Source: Sphingobacteriales bacterium
GTDB taxonomy: Bacteria > Bacteroidota > Bacteroidia > UKL13-3
Length of the DNA stretch: 49,062 nucleotides
Assembly: GCA_021298155.1 (NCBI GenBank)
Contig: JAJTEN010000038.1
Coordinates: 1-49,062 of the forward strand
Reading direction: 5' to 3'
Shown: one piece after another, positions 28,305 to 34,641 of the stretch
How the letters are laid out: each line of letters starts with the position of its first letter
Position numbering within the stretch: the stretch's first letter is position 1
The notes under the pieces: generated by a model
The model's database searches: none
Told to the model about the DNA's origin: nothing
What the model saw: only the letters and a program-made list of their open reading frames with translations
Program-made: the position numbers and the translations under genes

Positions 28305-29015
28305 CTATCTGTTTACAATAATTCCATTCTCTACCGTATAAAAAGGAACAATTACAGACTGCCTCTGAGTTAAATAGGTATGATATGCCGCAGAAAAGTT
28401 TTTGCGTTCCGTTATACATTCATCAAAATTACCATATAAACCCATCAATAACTCGCTGACTTCTCGAACTGCAAAACCACCACTTTGCTCTGCTGTTATA
28501 TAATCTACCAATTGATTAGTCACTAAATATTTATTAAATAAGGGATTTGCCTTCCGCCCAATTGCCATTCTAAGTCCACACATTTCTGCCAAGCTAACAT
28601 CTAAAACATCATCAAACACATAGCAAACCTCCTTAGGTTCAAGTCCTTTCTCTTTGCAAAAATGCTGTAAGGCAATGGTTTTATCAGCCACTTTAAAATA
28701 ACAAGCATTAAAATGTTCTCGATCTGCAAAATAAAATGCCATTTCATTTTTTTCGCCTGAAATGATGGCTGTATTGGGCAATTTACCATGCTTCTGGAAA
28801 TAACTAAAGCGAAGCATATTGGTGCCCATACTATCTATTTCATTAAAGTTACTGCTTTTATTTTCGTTTTTAACCCCATTATTAAAAACACCATCCCAAT
28901 CAAAAACAAAGGCTTTAATTTGCTTTAACTTTTGCTCAATTTCTGCAATAGGACTAATAAACTGTGCGCCTATCTGAGAATAAATAACTTCAAGTTCTTG
29001 TATTGAATATGCCAT
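28305..29015 (-). CDS. HAD-family phosphatase, KdsC-like (probable Kdo-8-phosphate phosphatase)
   Basis: A 236-residue HAD protein. The nucleophile motif FDWDGVFNNG (D39 and D41) is preceded by a ~34-residue N-terminal extension. Motif II serine is in TAIISGEKNEMA, and the acidic motif IV is VFDDVLDVSLAEMCG, in the pattern of KdsC (DxDGV...D). KdsC removes phosphate from Kdo-8-P, and the kdsA product lies in the same gene group. A C-terminal extension of about 60 residues is not found in ordinary ~170-residue KdsC. A strong hairpin separates it from the transaldolase-CBS gene, so it may be only partly co-transcribed. KdsC identity is supported by context more than by sequence. Confidence 0.7.
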   Translation of the reverse strand: MAYSIQELEVIYSQIGAQFISPIAEIEQKLKQIKAFVFDWDGVFNNGVKNENKSSNFNEIDSMGTNMLRFSYFQKHGKLPNTAIISGEKNEMAFYFADREHFNACYFKVADKTIALQHFCKEKGLEPKEVCYVFDDVLDVSLAEMCGLRMAIGRKANPLFNKYLVTNQLVDYITAEQSGGFAVREVSELLMGLYGNFDECITERKNFSAAYHTYLTQRQSVIVPFYTVENGIIVNR

Positions 29016-29094: not shown

Positions 29095-30105
29095 TTATGC
29101 TTCTAAATCCTGAATGTCTATCATTCCAATAGGCTTACCCTGGTCAACTACCAAAATAGTATCTACTTTAGTCGCTTTAAATACAGTAGCTGCATCATTT
29201 AATAAGGCATTAGCATCAATTGAGATTGCAGTATTGTATGTAAAATCACCAATTTTCTGACTCAAAACATCTCTCCCATCTGTTTGGATTTTTCTTCTTA
29301 AATCGCCATCTGTGAACACACCTTTAAGACTACCATCATGATTTACAACCGTGATAGCTCCAAATCCAAACTCAGTCATTTTAACAATTGCATCAGCTAG
29401 GTTTGTATCTCCGCTAACGATAGGATTCACAGCATTTATTGCTTCTTTCACCCTTACAGTCATTAAACGAGTATCTCTAATAAATTGATCTGTTCCTACA
29501 GTTGTAAAATGATTCTCTGTTAATTGTTTCATAATTTTTAGCGGCACAGTAATCGTATGCACACCCAAGTTTAATGCATTTCTTACATGCTCTAAAGTTC
29601 TCACTGAAGAGAACATCACTTTAGTATCATAACCATAATGATCTACCGCATCTACAATTTGAGAAACCAAATCTAGGGCATCATGACCTTGATCTTGTAA
29701 TCTACCTACAAGCGGACAAACATAAGTAGCACCAGCTTGCATAGCCATGTATGCTTGTTGCAGGGTATAAACTAAATGAACATTTACTAATAAACCTTCG
29801 TTACGTAATAATTTACAAGCACGAACGCCTTCCAAAGAAACCGGAATTTTAAATACAGTTTTCTTAGGATCAAGTCCTAATGCCAATTGCCTTTGAGCTT
29901 CTTTTAACACATCTTCTGCCGTATCCCCAAGAGCTTCAATTTGAAGAACAGGCACCATTTTAGATAGTTTTACAATCATGCCATCAATGTCGGTTATACC
30001 TTCACGTTGCATAAATGTTGGAGTAGTGGTTAATCCATTAAGGAAGCCTAATTTAAAACCTTCTTCAATTTCTTTTAGGTTAGCTGAGTCTAAATATAAT
30101 TCCAT
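29095..30105 (-). CDS. Transaldolase-family (TalC/FSA type) enzyme fused to KdsD-type CBS domain pair
   Basis: A 336-residue fusion. Residues 1-~222 are a class I aldolase of the small transaldolase/fructose-6-phosphate aldolase type (MELYLDSAN; Schiff-base K86 in VFKIPVS; YVCPLVGRLQDQG). Residues ~228-336 are two CBS domains whose GVFTDGDLRR (262-271) and GMIDIQDL motifs match the CBS pair of KdsD, the arabinose-5-phosphate isomerase of Kdo synthesis. The SIS isomerase domain of KdsD is absent. By hand alignment to E. coli FSA, pocket residues differ: Asn28 is Thr, Gln59 is Glu (as in true transaldolases), Thr109 is His and Tyr131 is Leu. It sits in the kdsA-kdnB-kdnA group. It may supply or regulate the sugar-phosphate precursor; the reaction is unknown. 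Confidence 0.85.
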   Translation of the reverse strand: MELYLDSANLKEIEEGFKLGFLNGLTTTPTFMQREGITDIDGMIVKLSKMVPVLQIEALGDTAEDVLKEAQRQLALGLDPKKTVFKIPVSLEGVRACKLLRNEGLLVNVHLVYTLQQAYMAMQAGATYVCPLVGRLQDQGHDALDLVSQIVDAVDHYGYDTKVMFSSVRTLEHVRNALNLGVHTITVPLKIMKQLTENHFTTVGTDQFIRDTRLMTVRVKEAINAVNPIVSGDTNLADAIVKMTEFGFGAITVVNHDGSLKGVFTDGDLRRKIQTDGRDVLSQKIGDFTYNTAISIDANALLNDAATVFKATKVDTILVVDQGKPIGMIDIQDLEA

Positions 30106-30182: not shown

Positions 30183-30836
30183 TCACAATCCAAAATTAAA
30201 ACTCATCCCCAATTTCAATCCACTTGGTCGCAACAATTCAAAAGTTGATTTTTGCAAATCTGAGAATTCTAGTTCGTAAGTATTGATGGTATTACCATTA
30301 ATTTTCACAAATTTCTCTGAAAAGGAATAACCAGGGTTATTAAGTGCGATTGCTAATCCAATATCAAAAGCTAAATTATTGCCATTTCTAAATAGGATAA
30401 CCCGTTGGAATCCTGGCACCAATACGTATGCTGGTTCTAAATCTATTTTTGCATTGATATTTTGGTTATTCAATTGATATATAACCTCCACATCCAGATC
30501 TTGATTTTCTGAACCAGATGCTCTGCTAAATCCAATGCTTGGGCGCCATTTTTTATTCGACCCCGCATTGAATATTGCCGTAAAACCAGATTTAAAACCA
30601 TAGCCGCCGATACCTACATTTAGTTCACCCAATACCTGTTCATTCAGCATCATACCATAACCCAATCCAATCAAACCGTATTTATAGTGTATGCCTGAAC
30701 CAATACTAATAAAAGCATTACGCTTTCTGCTATCATTGGACTCAGACGACCTTGGTCTTTCATATTGCGCCATGCCAAGAAAACTAATGCCAAGCAAAAA
30801 AAGTGTTGTTAGATAACGTTTTTTAAGGTTCTTCAT
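30183..30836 (-). CDS. Predicted outer-membrane beta-barrel protein, paralogue A
   Basis: A 217-residue protein with a signal peptide (MKNLKKRYLTTLFLLGISFLGMAQ) and alternating glycine/aromatic beta strands. Recognisable strands are ISIGSGIHYKYGLIGLGYG, LNVGIGGYGFKSG and a C-terminal GLKLGMSFNFGL. It shares this layout with the next gene upstream, so the two arose by duplication. I know no function for them. The position inside a Kdo/Kdo8N gene group suggests a role at the lipopolysaccharide-bearing outer membrane, which is inference. It is one of few genes here that end in TGA (followed at once by TAA). Confidence 0.65.
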   Translation of the reverse strand: MKNLKKRYLTTLFLLGISFLGMAQYERPRSSESNDSRKRNAFISIGSGIHYKYGLIGLGYGMMLNEQVLGELNVGIGGYGFKSGFTAIFNAGSNKKWRPSIGFSRASGSENQDLDVEVIYQLNNQNINAKIDLEPAYVLVPGFQRVILFRNGNNLAFDIGLAIALNNPGYSFSEKFVKINGNTINTYELEFSDLQKSTFELLRPSGLKLGMSFNFGL

Positions 30837-30848
30837 ATGGTTTCAAGT

Positions 30849-31493
30849 TTACTTTTTTCCGATGCCAAATTGATAAGATAGATTTAGCATTATTCCGTTT
30901 GGTGATAAAATATCAAAAATTCTATTCTGTTGATTGGTAAAAGTGATATCTTTTTTTGGAATAAACTGATTATAAAAAATAATACCATCTGCAGAAATGG
31001 TAACATTGGGTTCATTTAAGGCAATCGAATAACCCATTTCTAGCACAAACTTATTTCCTCTTTTACCTACCCATTGTCTTTGAATGCCTAGGTGAAGAAT
31101 ATTTACATCATTATAATCTAAACCGTCTGAATAGTCTATTGTAGTAGTACCACCTTGGTAAGTTATTTGCGTGGCTAAAGGCAGCTTTTTTGCACCAAAA
31201 TTTTTAGTATAACCAACAGATGGTAACCATTTCTTGCTAAAACTTGAATTACTGAGTGATATTCCTGCTTTGTTTCCCCAACCGCCCATACCCATATTTA
31301 GTTCGAGCAAGGTTTCTGGTAAAACCCTAATACCTATTACGGCGCCAATTAATCCAAATTTACCATACAAACCACTTCCAACACCAATATAAACAGGTGG
31401 ATTCGACTTATTGACAGGCAACACACCATCAACAGGTTGCGCTGATAATTTGAAAAAAGAAAGACATAATAAAGCTATAACTAACTGTTTCAT
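30849..31493 (-). CDS. Predicted outer-membrane beta-barrel protein, paralogue B
   Basis: A 214-residue protein with a signal peptide (MKQLVIALLCLSFFKLSAQ). Strands matching its neighbour are IGVGSGLYGKFGLIGAVIG, LELNMGMGGWGNKAG, KKWLPSVGYTKNFG and the C-terminal NGIMLNLSYQFGIG. It lies 17 bp after kdsA and 12 bp before paralogue A on the same strand, consistent with one operon. The mature length (about 195 residues) would fit an 8-strand barrel. No homology to a characterised family is evident to me. Confidence 0.65.
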   Translation of the reverse strand: MKQLVIALLCLSFFKLSAQPVDGVLPVNKSNPPVYIGVGSGLYGKFGLIGAVIGIRVLPETLLELNMGMGGWGNKAGISLSNSSFSKKWLPSVGYTKNFGAKKLPLATQITYQGGTTTIDYSDGLDYNDVNILHLGIQRQWVGKRGNKFVLEMGYSIALNEPNVTISADGIIFYNQFIPKKDITFTNQQNRIFDILSPNGIMLNLSYQFGIGKK

Positions 31494-31510: not shown

Positions 31511-32338
31511 TTATCTGTATTTAACTTCAATGGCATGCATTTCGATAAGTGGTTTTAAAAACTCCTCCAAATCATATACGCACAACTGCGAAGCCGCATC
31601 GCACAGCGCTTTGGCTGGTTCAGGATGTGTTTCAATAAAAATTCCATCAACGCCTGCTGCAACGCCTGCTCGACTCAATACAGGTAAAAATTCGCGCATT
31701 CCACCATTTGGATCGGCGCTTGGAATTCCATATTTACGAACGCAATGGGTAACATCAAAAACCACAGGGTAGCCAATATTTCTGAGGTGAAAAAAGCTTC
31801 TTGGGTCAACAATTAAATCATTGTATCCAAATGTATATCCACGTTCTGTTAATATGATTTGATCATTGCCACTTTCAACACATTTGGCGGCAGGATGCTT
31901 CATATTATCAGGTGCCAAAAACTGACCATGTTTAATATTAACTACCTTTCCTGTTTTTGCCGCAGCAACCAATAAAGTACTTTGCATACACAAGTAGGCA
32001 GGAATTTGGATAACATCCACCACTTCACCTGCCGCAGTGGCTTGTTCTGGGTAATGTACATCTGTAATAATTGGAAAACCAAATTGATCCCGAATTTTTG
32101 ATAATATGGCAAGACCTTTTTCTAAACCCGGACCATCATAATATTTGAGAGAACTACGGTTGTCTTTTTGAAAAGAAGACTTGTAGATTAGTTTTATTTT
32201 TAAACGCTCCGAAACTTCTTTAAGCTTCTCAGCCGTTTTTAACATGGTTAATTCATCTTCTATTACACATGGACCGCTGATTAAAAATAACTCATCGCTG
32301 CCGCATGCTATATCTCCAACTTTTACAATTTTTGTCAT
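31511..32338 (-). CDS. kdsA: 3-deoxy-8-phosphooctulonate synthase (Kdo-8-phosphate synthase)
   Basis: Condenses phosphoenolpyruvate with D-arabinose-5-phosphate to Kdo-8-phosphate for lipopolysaccharide. The ~275-residue product has the family motifs LISGPCVIE, KSSFQKDNRSS, ITDVHYPEQ, DVIQIPAYLCMQ, VNIKHGQFLAP, TERGYTFGYNDLIVDPR, FDVTHCVRKYG and GIFIETHPEP. The asparagine in IKHG is replaced (IKHGQF rather than KKxQF/KPxF patterns), so I cannot assign metal dependence safely. The frame is open to 32374, inside kdnB, but the ATG at 32338, 11 bp after the kdnB stop, gives a normal N-terminus (MTKIVKVGD). It lies with kdnB and kdnA upstream. Confidence 0.95.
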   Translation of the reverse strand: MTKIVKVGDIACGSDELFLISGPCVIEDELTMLKTAEKLKEVSERLKIKLIYKSSFQKDNRSSLKYYDGPGLEKGLAILSKIRDQFGFPIITDVHYPEQATAAGEVVDVIQIPAYLCMQSTLLVAAAKTGKVVNIKHGQFLAPDNMKHPAAKCVESGNDQIILTERGYTFGYNDLIVDPRSFFHLRNIGYPVVFDVTHCVRKYGIPSADPNGGMREFLPVLSRAGVAAGVDGIFIETHPEPAKALCDAASQLCVYDLEEFLKPLIEMHAIEVKYR

Positions 32339-32348
32339 GGTGTTGTTA

Positions 32349-33431
32349 TTACATTCTTCTAAATAAATCTTCAATTCTTTCTATGGTAATTTTGTCTTGC
32401 CAATCGGTTCCTACCGCATGATTCCACATATGTGGCAGATTGTAGGAAACATGAGCCATAGCTGTTATGGTTTCATCACTCCAGTTAGCACTTAAGTTTT
32501 GAGGCAAGACTATACCGTGTTTTTTTAGCATGGTTTTAAACTCTGCAACACCTTCAGGGTAATAATCTCCCAAATGTTGGAAGGCTAAACAATTGGCATA
32601 ACAATGTTTCTCTCCTAATATTTTACCTAAACCATAACTTAAGGCATGACAAACGCCAACTTCCGAATAGGTTAAACTTAGGCCACCCATTAAAGATGCT
32701 ACCATCAATTTATCATCATTTTCAGGATTTTGTCCGGCATTATCACCCAAATAAATGTCTCTGCAAAGCTTTAGAGATTGTTCTCCATAAGCCATACTGT
32801 AGGCATTGTTTAGAATACCATCTCTGCTTTCTATACAGTGAATAAAGGTATCCATTCCAGTATAAAACCACTTATCAACGGGAACACTTGCAGTAAGTTC
32901 CGAATCTAAAATCACTTGATCGAAAATAGTCCATTCACACTTTAAACCCAGCTTTTTCTCCGGACCAGTTAAAACTGCTGTCATGCTACATTCTGCTCCT
33001 GTTCCAGAAATGCTTGGAACTCCAACATGATAAACACCGGGATTTTTAATTAAGTTTAATCCTTGATATTGTTGCGACTTCCCTTCATTACACAACATTA
33101 AAGAAAGTGCCTTGGCAATATCCATAATACTTCCCCCACCAATTCCAATAACACCCGATGGTAACCCTTTTGTAGCTAAAATTTCATCTCGAAGTGCATC
33201 TATTTGTTCTGTAGTTGGTTCATGCGGGTCTACATCAATAAAATAAATCAGGTCTTCAGCTTGTTGTTGTAATCTATTTTCGAGCTCTTTACCCTTAAAA
33301 TACTGGTCAACCACATACACAAAATACTGTTGGTTCAAACCACGTTTTGGGGCAATAATTTCTGCTAATTGATTAAAACTACCACGACCAAAAACTGTTT
33401 TTTCTATTGATTTAAAATTTTTATGTGTCAT
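32349..33431 (-). CDS. kdnB: Iron-containing alcohol dehydrogenase family; probable Kdo 8-oxidase KdnB
   Basis: A 360-residue Fe-ADH-fold protein. It contains VFGRGSFNQL near the N-terminus, the nucleotide loop GVIGIGGGSIMDIAKAL, PSISGTGAECSM, and metal-ligand segments (YTGMDTFIHCIE, VCHALSYGLG, WNHAVG). In Shewanella oneidensis KdnB oxidises the C8 alcohol of Kdo to the aldehyde, and KdnA then aminates it to 8-amino-3,8-dideoxy-Kdo (Kdo8N). Adjacency here to a DegT-type aminotransferase on one side (4 bp) and kdsA on the other (10 bp) makes the KdnB assignment much more likely than a general alcohol dehydrogenase. Activity remains untested. Confidence 0.83.
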   Translation of the reverse strand: MTHKNFKSIEKTVFGRGSFNQLAEIIAPKRGLNQQYFVYVVDQYFKGKELENRLQQQAEDLIYFIDVDPHEPTTEQIDALRDEILATKGLPSGVIGIGGGSIMDIAKALSLMLCNEGKSQQYQGLNLIKNPGVYHVGVPSISGTGAECSMTAVLTGPEKKLGLKCEWTIFDQVILDSELTASVPVDKWFYTGMDTFIHCIESRDGILNNAYSMAYGEQSLKLCRDIYLGDNAGQNPENDDKLMVASLMGGLSLTYSEVGVCHALSYGLGKILGEKHCYANCLAFQHLGDYYPEGVAEFKTMLKKHGIVLPQNLSANWSDETITAMAHVSYNLPHMWNHAVGTDWQDKITIERIEDLFRRM

Positions 33432-33435
33432 TATT

Positions 33436-34641
33436 TTAAGCGGTTTGACCCAAAACCTGATGTAAAGACTGGCTCATTTTATTTAGTAACTCATCTAACT
33501 CGGCATCTGTCCATGAAGCTTTAATACCAAAAGAAATAAGTCTACCAATTGTTTCTTGAGTTTTTGGCAAATCAAGATTTAAATAATCTTGCGGAGCACC
33601 CAATAACTGAATATTGGTTTTAGCAGCTACCTTACCCTCCTTTATATGTTCCCATTGATTGATGAAATGGTACATATTTGTGAACCAATAATTAAAACCT
33701 GATATACCATTTGCATTAAAGGTATCTACTGCTTTTTGAGCCAATTCTGTATTGGGAAGCATTAGGTTTAAGAAAGTTGCAGAGTCGCCCTTTGGATCAG
33801 GAATAGTAGCAAAAGAAACTCCTGCAATTTTACCAAGCTCCTGCATCATTTTCGACTTAATGCGGTTATTGTTTTCTCTTATCATAGGAACTCTTCTGGT
33901 CTGAACCAAACCAATGGCTGCATGTAACTCAGAAATTCTGTAATTAAACCCTAGAACAGGATGGGTTTCCATACCACGGTTGTTCCCAATGTGACTGTGA
34001 CCGTGATCTGAGTAATTATCTGCTAATTTATAGGCTTCTTCGCTATTTGTAACAAATACACCACCCTCTCCAGCAGTAGCTATTTTGAAAAAATCAAAAC
34101 TATAACATCCAGTGGCACCAAATAATCCAGTTGAGGTACCTTTAAAACTTGCTGCCATTGCCTGACCAGCATCCTCAACCAATACCAAATTATGCTCTTT
34201 AACCACAGCCATAATCTCATCCATTTGAGCCATCTGTCCGCACATATGAACTAAAAGTACTGCTTTTGTTTTTGGTGTAATGGCTTTTTTTATACCTTCC
34301 GCACTTAAGCACAAGGTTTCATCAATTTCGGCAAATACAGGAAGTGCACCTGCAAAAATAACAGCTTCAACACTGGCTATATAAGTAAATGGAGGCACAA
34401 TAACTTCGTCGCCAGCGCCTATACCTGCGGCAGCCAATGCACAAGAAACTGCAGTACTTCCGCTTGAAACTGCATGTGCATATTTTGCCCCCACTAATTT
34501 GGCAACTTCTGATTCAAATTCTTTGGCTTTCCAGATACCATTGCGCTGGGCATCATGGTTAAACCTAAAAAATATTCCAGTCTCTAACACATCGTTAATT
34601 TCTTTGCGCTCTTCAGCGCCATAATATTCTGTTCCTGCCAT
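33436..34641 (-). CDS. kdnA: DegT/DnrJ/EryC1 aminotransferase; probable 8-amino-3,8-dideoxy-Kdo synthase KdnA
   Basis: A 401-residue PLP-dependent sugar aminotransferase. Motifs are the SSGSTAVSCALAA phosphate-binding region (59-71), PPFTYIAS, the PLP-ring aspartate in VEDAGQA (about 155-161) and the Schiff-base K186 in SFDFFKIATAGEGG. It is the first gene of the kdnA-kdnB-kdsA group. KdnA of Shewanella uses glutamate to aminate the C8 aldehyde of Kdo, which lowers the negative charge of the lipopolysaccharide core and alters polymyxin susceptibility. Upstream, a TATTTTTG element fits a -7 box. Confidence 0.82.
   Translation of the reverse strand: MAGTEYYGAEERKEINDVLETGIFFRFNHDAQRNGIWKAKEFESEVAKLVGAKYAHAVSSGSTAVSCALAAAGIGAGDEVIVPPFTYIASVEAVIFAGALPVFAEIDETLCLSAEGIKKAITPKTKAVLLVHMCGQMAQMDEIMAVVKEHNLVLVEDAGQAMAASFKGTSTGLFGATGCYSFDFFKIATAGEGGVFVTNSEEAYKLADNYSDHGHSHIGNNRGMETHPVLGFNYRISELHAAIGLVQTRRVPMIRENNNRIKSKMMQELGKIAGVSFATIPDPKGDSATFLNLMLPNTELAQKAVDTFNANGISGFNYWFTNMYHFINQWEHIKEGKVAAKTNIQLLGAPQDYLNLDLPKTQETIGRLISFGIKASWTDAELDELLNKMSQSLHQVLGQTA

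Follow-up and report, generated by a model that had tools for sequence, protein, structure and literature searches.

We propose that a 336-residue protein encoded in the window (the whole 49,062-nucleotide stretch of DNA analysed here) supplies the cell with D-arabinose 5-phosphate (A5P), the substrate of the Kdo-8-phosphate synthase KdsA, and that it is a non-orthologous replacement of the SIS-type isomerase KdsD, working by Lys86 aldol chemistry under CBS-mediated feedback. We hold this reading with a probability of roughly three in four. The protein is a fusion of a transaldolase barrel with a KdsD-type CBS pair. A preliminary description of this DNA had suggested a different route to, or control of, A5P, and the suggestion is supported by the mutual exclusivity of the fusion with KdsD, its linkage to KdsA, the exchange of the two enzymes in one genome (G340) and the pairing of the barrel with KdsA on viral contigs. 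From these observations, together with the architecture of the protein and its pocket, we infer the product, the chemistry, the two-carbon donor and the CBS ligand.

Architecture and active-site pocket of the fusion

The open reading frame occupies positions 29095..30105 of the minus strand and opens with ATG. Residues 1-211 (29473..30105, minus strand) form a TAL/FSA barrel, of which residues 3-201 match Pfam TAL_FSA (PF00923) at 121 bits against a cut-off of 27. Residues 215-334 (29104..29463, minus strand) form the CBS pair, in which Pfam recognises two CBS stretches (56 bits, cut-off 24) and which carries the motif FTDGDLRR at residues 264-271 (29293-29316, minus strand). The best NCBIfam match of this part is TIGR00393 (KpsF/KdsD). 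Because residues 215-329 match only profile positions 153-267, the SIS isomerase part is missing, and the score of 62 bits lies below the cut-off of 203.7. The solved structures nearest to the CBS pair are three arabinose-5-phosphate isomerases (4o9k, 3k2v and 3fna). Structure prediction of the fusion gave a pLDDT of 88.5 and a pTM of 0.58, and at this pTM the relative orientation of the domains was left unused. The barrel model superposed on the transaldolase 1vpx with a Z of 29.1 and an rmsd of 1.4 over 193 residues; the structure-search matches listed were matches to the barrel, to which our structural conclusions are confined. Pfam, TIGR00393 and the structure matches all agree with the earlier reading of the protein as a small transaldolase barrel fused to a KdsD-type CBS pair in place of the SIS domain. 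Full-length homologues with the same architecture and an invariant pocket occur in many genomes, so the frame is not a chance ORF.

Aligned with the E. coli FsaA reference sequence (a full-length match to 1l6w), the fusion has T28 (codon 30022-30024), E57, H110 (29776-29778) and L132 in the places of Asn28, Gln59, Thr109 and Tyr131, and it keeps D6, T26 and K86 (29848-29850; all codons on the minus strand). The four exchanges and the retention of K86 are exactly those of the alignment made by hand for the preliminary description. Glu is the normal transaldolase state at the Gln59 position, being found in 11 of 12 ordinary relatives with E. coli FSA as the exception, and therefore only T28, H110 and L132 of the four changed residues are unusual. 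C130, M164 and S166 are further unusual residues; all six are identical across 42 fusions and three viral copies of the barrel and different in the 12 ordinary relatives. At the donor site, the canonical Asn28, Thr110, Ser130 and Phe132 are present in 11-12 of the 12 ordinary relatives, whereas the fusions and viral copies have Thr, His, Cys and Leu. K86 and Asp6 are invariant throughout the same 42 fusions and three viral copies, and the phosphate-site residues Arg135, Ser167 and Arg169 are kept in the fusion family. In place of the FSA combination of Gln59 and Tyr131 the fusion has Glu57 and Leu132, and it scores 165.8 bits against the FSA equivalog TIGR00875, below the cut-off of 245.95. 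By the features tested, the fusion is a member of the TAL/FSA superfamily that is neither an FSA equivalog, nor a canonical transaldolase in its pocket, nor a KdsD.

Five other full-length fusions, at 37-41% identity, lie in L222 5889-6890(-), L223 5927-6937(-), L224 5777-6781(-), L225 5632-6651(+) and L226 5374-6417(+), from genomes G494, G524, G551, G576 and G624, all of family f3. Their barrels have R or S in place of Lys86 and lack Thr26 and the phosphate-site arginines, and their CBS pairs still carry FTDGDLRR. By these residues they make up a predicted pseudoenzyme branch. No Kdo genes were found in the 12-kb stretches around them, and neighbours in L222, L224 and L225 resemble an M61-type peptidase and a PafA-like phosphatase.

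Gene group and distribution relative to KdsD

The gene order on the minus strand is kdnA, kdnB, kdsA, two OMP-like genes, the fusion and a KdsC-like HAD gene. KdnA, the 8-amino-Kdo transaminase (33436..34641), matches Shewanella KdnA (5k8b) at 441.6 bits with the next best match at 164, and KdnB, a Kdo 8-oxidase of the iron-dependent alcohol dehydrogenase family (32349..33431), matches Shewanella KdnB (5k8c) at 420.5 bits. With scores far above those of other families, the two are orthologues of the Kdo8N genes. KdsA (31511..32374), which is probably translated from the internal Met 13, scores 333.4 bits against TIGR01362 (cut-off 314). These matches confirm the kdnA-kdnB-kdsA context noted earlier. 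Directly downstream of the fusion, the 236-residue HAD phosphatase (28305..29015) reaches 56 bits with PRK09484 (KdsC), a family whose cut-off is 208. No glycolaldehyde-producing gene was found in the window's gene group.

A scan of 84,980 species gave 80 fusion loci. Partners near the fusion were KdsA in 53 of the 80, HAD in 56, KdnA in 44 and KdnB likewise in 44, counts that are lowered by contig ends. Carriers include the cultured Chitinophagaceae bacterium LGM1 (complete genome CP075895.1, locus L100). Many carriers have KdsA, the fusion and HAD without kdnA and kdnB, and hence the constant link is to the Kdo pathway and not to Kdo8N as such. The preliminary description had named the absence of conserved linkage to the kdsA/kdn genes as a finding that would refute it. 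These counts show such linkage, which for the Kdo8N genes in particular is not general. The OMP-like proteins between KdsA and the fusion have 217 residues (30183..30836, minus strand; a homologue of its type in 10 of the 80 loci) and 214 residues (30849..31493, minus strand; 5 of the 80). The latter has no Pfam or NCBIfam match, and in some other loci OMP-like homologues occupy the same place between kdsA and the fusion.

The host genome is 98.7% complete and encodes KdsA and KdsB; no SIS-type KdsD was found in it. Its TIGR00393 matches are confined to the fusion CBS pair and one CBS pair in a 497-residue frame that is IMPDH-like by length. Another SIS isomerase as A5P source was considered and rejected, the PF01380 inventory of the host comprising only GlmS, GmhA-like, MurQ-like and PGI/PMI-like proteins. 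Among 98 relatives, the fusion is present in 36, SIS-KdsD in 43 (a count that takes in three matches below the curated cut-off, in G080, G085 and G089) and both in none. The 77 relatives with KdsA divide into 35 with the fusion only, 39 with SIS-KdsD only and 3 with neither, so that 74 have exactly one of the two enzymes; 16 of the 21 relatives that lack KdsA have neither. The three exceptions with KdsA are draft genomes: the completeness of G045 is 70% and its KdsA is of the fusion-linked kind, a contig end of G070 holds a CBS fragment resembling that of the fusion, and G033 belongs to a genus with SIS-KdsD.

A class-wide draw of 395 genomes contained 76 with the fusion, 225 with SIS-KdsD and 5 with both, as against 43 expected. 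The Fisher p-values of about 1e-18 to 1e-25 overstate the exclusivity because related genomes are not independent samples; more weight attaches to the fact that the change recurs within families. In a phylum-wide draw, fusion carriers occurred in families f14, f35 (two genera), f45 and, in another class, f51. The carriers G238, G183, G383, G282 and G476 of these families are 99-100% complete and lack SIS-KdsD, which is present in 28 of their 29 family relatives; the 29th lacks KdsA too. The overlap in the class draw is genuine in G662, G681 and G746, all of genus g292, and in G729; the fifth genome, G576, has a degenerate fusion. By eye, SIS-KdsD lies in the same kind of chromosomal neighbourhood in G662 and G729, beside tatC-, lptB- and recQ-like genes, and the g292 genomes and G729 are possible transitional states. 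A normal kdsD in all fusion carriers had been named as a finding that would speak against the original suggestion; kdsD was found in none of the 36 carriers among the relatives and in 5 of the 76 in the class draw. A search for plasmid copies gave 213 matching records; the ones listed match the barrel alone, with identities no higher than 38%, and none covers 80% of the query.

Two alternatives bear on this pattern. The fusion might be an ordinary allosteric transaldolase or fructose-6-phosphate aldolase whose role in Kdo synthesis is to keep pentose phosphates in balance, with A5P coming from an unrecognised isomerase. In favour of this reading, the fusion retains the barrel fold, Lys86, Asp6 and the arginines of the phosphate site. 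However, the host already encodes a normal transaldolase with a canonical pocket, the donor-site residues of the fusion are changed, the SIS inventory offers no spare isomerase, and the replacement pattern with KdsD would go unexplained; we regard this reading as quite improbable. More improbable still, the whole kdn/kdsA group might spread as a unit and the loss of KdsD be incidental. The fusion-linked KdsA and the fusion do often move together, but a Kdo-making cell with KdsA could not lose KdsD without another A5P source, and in several genomes (e.g., G034 and G282) the fusion lies far from its KdsA while KdsD is still excluded.

The fusion-linked KdsA clade and viral copies of the barrel

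The KdsA proteins linked to the fusion form a distinct clade, here called KdsA*, with a support of 100/100 and a stem of 0.91 changes per site. D71, M130 and H149 are invariant or near-invariant in it, compared with A, R and K in 17 ordinary KdsAs. Within the motifs concerned, KDNRSS replaces KANRSS, and M replaces the conserved R in PA(F/Y)LC(R)Q; these are invariant in 72 sequences. Because the changes (Asp for Ala in KANRS and Met for R130) are lineage-wide and lie close to the active site, the substrate of KdsA* might not be plain A5P. The fusion would then make some other aldose phosphate, which a KdsA with altered specificity would turn into the precursor of an unusual Kdo-like acid, and the separate clade with its D71, M130 and H149 is what speaks for this. 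Three observations argue against it, and we think it improbable. The near-complete, single-contig genome G340 has a kdnA-kdnB-KdsA*-HAD group without the fusion, encodes SIS-KdsD elsewhere and has a single KdsA, a KdsA* that groups as sister with the one from the fusion carrier G282; the same type of KdsA is thus fed by KdsD in one genome and, apparently, by the fusion in another. Viral barrels are paired with KdsAs bearing the ordinary KANR motif. Finally, G024 has both types of KdsA and only the fusion. In this genome (L045 and L046) the two KdsAs fall one in each clade, and the fusion is the only candidate A5P source.

Three IMG/VR contigs encode the barrel alone, as a 213-residue protein without CBS domains that is 64-66% identical to the barrel of the window and has the same pocket. 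KdsA is present on all three, overlapping the upstream barrel gene by 1 bp in two and lying 7 kb away in the third. Among 2.9 million viral contigs, no more than 34 stretches with a KdsA of this kind were found, and its presence on all three barrel contigs is therefore not due to chance. On L207, PHROGs matches to a homing endonuclease and a phosphoesterase are compatible with a phage origin; no structural phage genes were identified in the viral stretches scanned. Copies in isolate phages were sought and rejected, since all 505 matches were below 60% identity and, among the matches listed, were ordinary transaldolases.

Other viral contigs encode KdsA in different company. On L171, L172 and L184-L200, KdsA mostly adjoins or lies near a KdsB-like gene, with no A5P source in the stretch read; judged by gene content, these are putative viral Kdo activation cassettes. 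On L174-L182, a KdnA-like aminotransferase of the DegT family lies about 2 kb downstream of KdsA, which may point to a viral pathway for amino-Kdo or another aminosugar.

Proposed chemistry and comparison with known systems

Lys86 would form an imine and enamine with a two-carbon glycolaldehyde unit, and the enamine would add to D-glyceraldehyde 3-phosphate (GAP) held by Arg135, Ser167 and Arg169 to give A5P, with Asp6 as the acid/base on the acceptor oxygen; the roles assigned here follow those of the residues in transaldolases. The two-carbon unit would be glycolaldehyde itself, which E. coli FSA uses in free form, or would come from a pentose phosphate, e.g., from ribose 5-phosphate by retro-aldol cleavage. 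Free glycolaldehyde is scarce in most cells, and for this reason the unit may come from ribose 5-phosphate; the net reaction would then be a C2 epimerisation, since ribose 5-phosphate and A5P differ only at C2. The CBS pair would sense a late pathway product, with CMP-Kdo or CMP-Kdo8N as the first candidate, and throttle the barrel. KdsD CBS domains probably bind CMP-Kdo. The viral barrels without CBS fit the view of the pair as a feedback device. Enamine addition to GAP appears to us the most likely chemistry given that E. coli FsaA and FsaB are reported to prefer glycolaldehyde as their donor and GAP as their acceptor and so to make A5P (PMC6298115), that a transaldolase has been crystallised with covalently bound A5P (3upb, from the entry title), and that the fusion combines kept Lys86, Asp6 and phosphate-site residues with altered donor surroundings.

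The nearest rival to this addition is direct imine-enol epimerisation or isomerisation of an aldose, in which Lys86 would form an imine at C1 of ribose 5-phosphate and E57 and H110 would shift the C2 proton between faces with no C-C cleavage. The covalent A5P complex suits this reaction as well. Its substrate would come from the pentose-phosphate pool, so that free glycolaldehyde would not be required, and the new invariant His110 at the FSA Thr109 position also speaks in its favour. Against it stands the invariance of Asp6 in the fusions and viral copies, a residue that in transaldolases presumably serves C-C bond chemistry, and we know of no such epimerase in the TAL/FSA family. We consider direct epimerisation unlikely, though less so than the other alternatives.

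We think it likely that the fusion is a second, unrelated enzyme of transaldolase fold for making A5P, the committed precursor of Kdo. It would have taken over the regulatory CBS pair of KdsD and displaced KdsD in many families of Bacteroidota, and viruses would have acquired the barrel without the regulator, beside a viral KdsA. A known fold and a known sensor would be joined into a new pathway enzyme that apparently does the work of KdsD. Textbook Kdo synthesis begins with the isomerisation of ribulose 5-phosphate by a SIS enzyme. If our reading is true, a large bacterial group uses Schiff-base barrel chemistry for this step, the absence of KdsD no longer implies the absence of Kdo, and annotation of the fusion as a transaldolase or fructose-6-phosphate aldolase is wrong. 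It would also be a clear natural case of catalytic-domain exchange under a conserved sensor domain. Synthetic pathways for glycolaldehyde assimilation, which at present rely on E. coli FsaA, would gain a naturally occurring aldolase (or 2-epimerase) that forms A5P. In a search that included a minority of subscription journals, we found no paper linking a transaldolase-CBS protein with Kdo or A5P.

Among known systems, KdsD/KpsF/GutQ (TIGR00393) shares with the fusion the CBS pair with FTDGDLRR, the place in the pathway before KdsA and near-exclusive presence in genomes with KdsA. Its catalytic domain is SIS, whereas that of the fusion is an unrelated Lys Schiff-base barrel, and so the chemistry of the fusion cannot be that of KdsD. 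E. coli FsaA/FsaB (TIGR00875) has the same barrel, with Lys85/86, and is reported to make A5P (PMC6298115), but has Gln59, Tyr131, Thr109 and Asn28 where the fusion has Glu, Leu, His and Thr, and has no CBS domains. The closest fold is that of the small transaldolases of T. acidophilum (3s0c), T. maritima (1vpx) and B. subtilis (3r8r), with Z about 29 and 33-34% identity. They share Asp6, Glu57/60, Lys86, Arg135, Ser167 and Arg169 with the fusion and differ at five positions, where the fusion has Thr for Asn28, His for Thr110, Cys for Ser130, Leu for Phe132 and Ser for Ala166; none of these replacements varies among the 42 fusions and three viral copies aligned. The Kdo8N genes of Shewanella oneidensis are orthologous to the KdnA and KdnB genes that here lie beside KdsA; unlike the Shewanella group, the fusion group is also found without kdnA and kdnB in many genomes.
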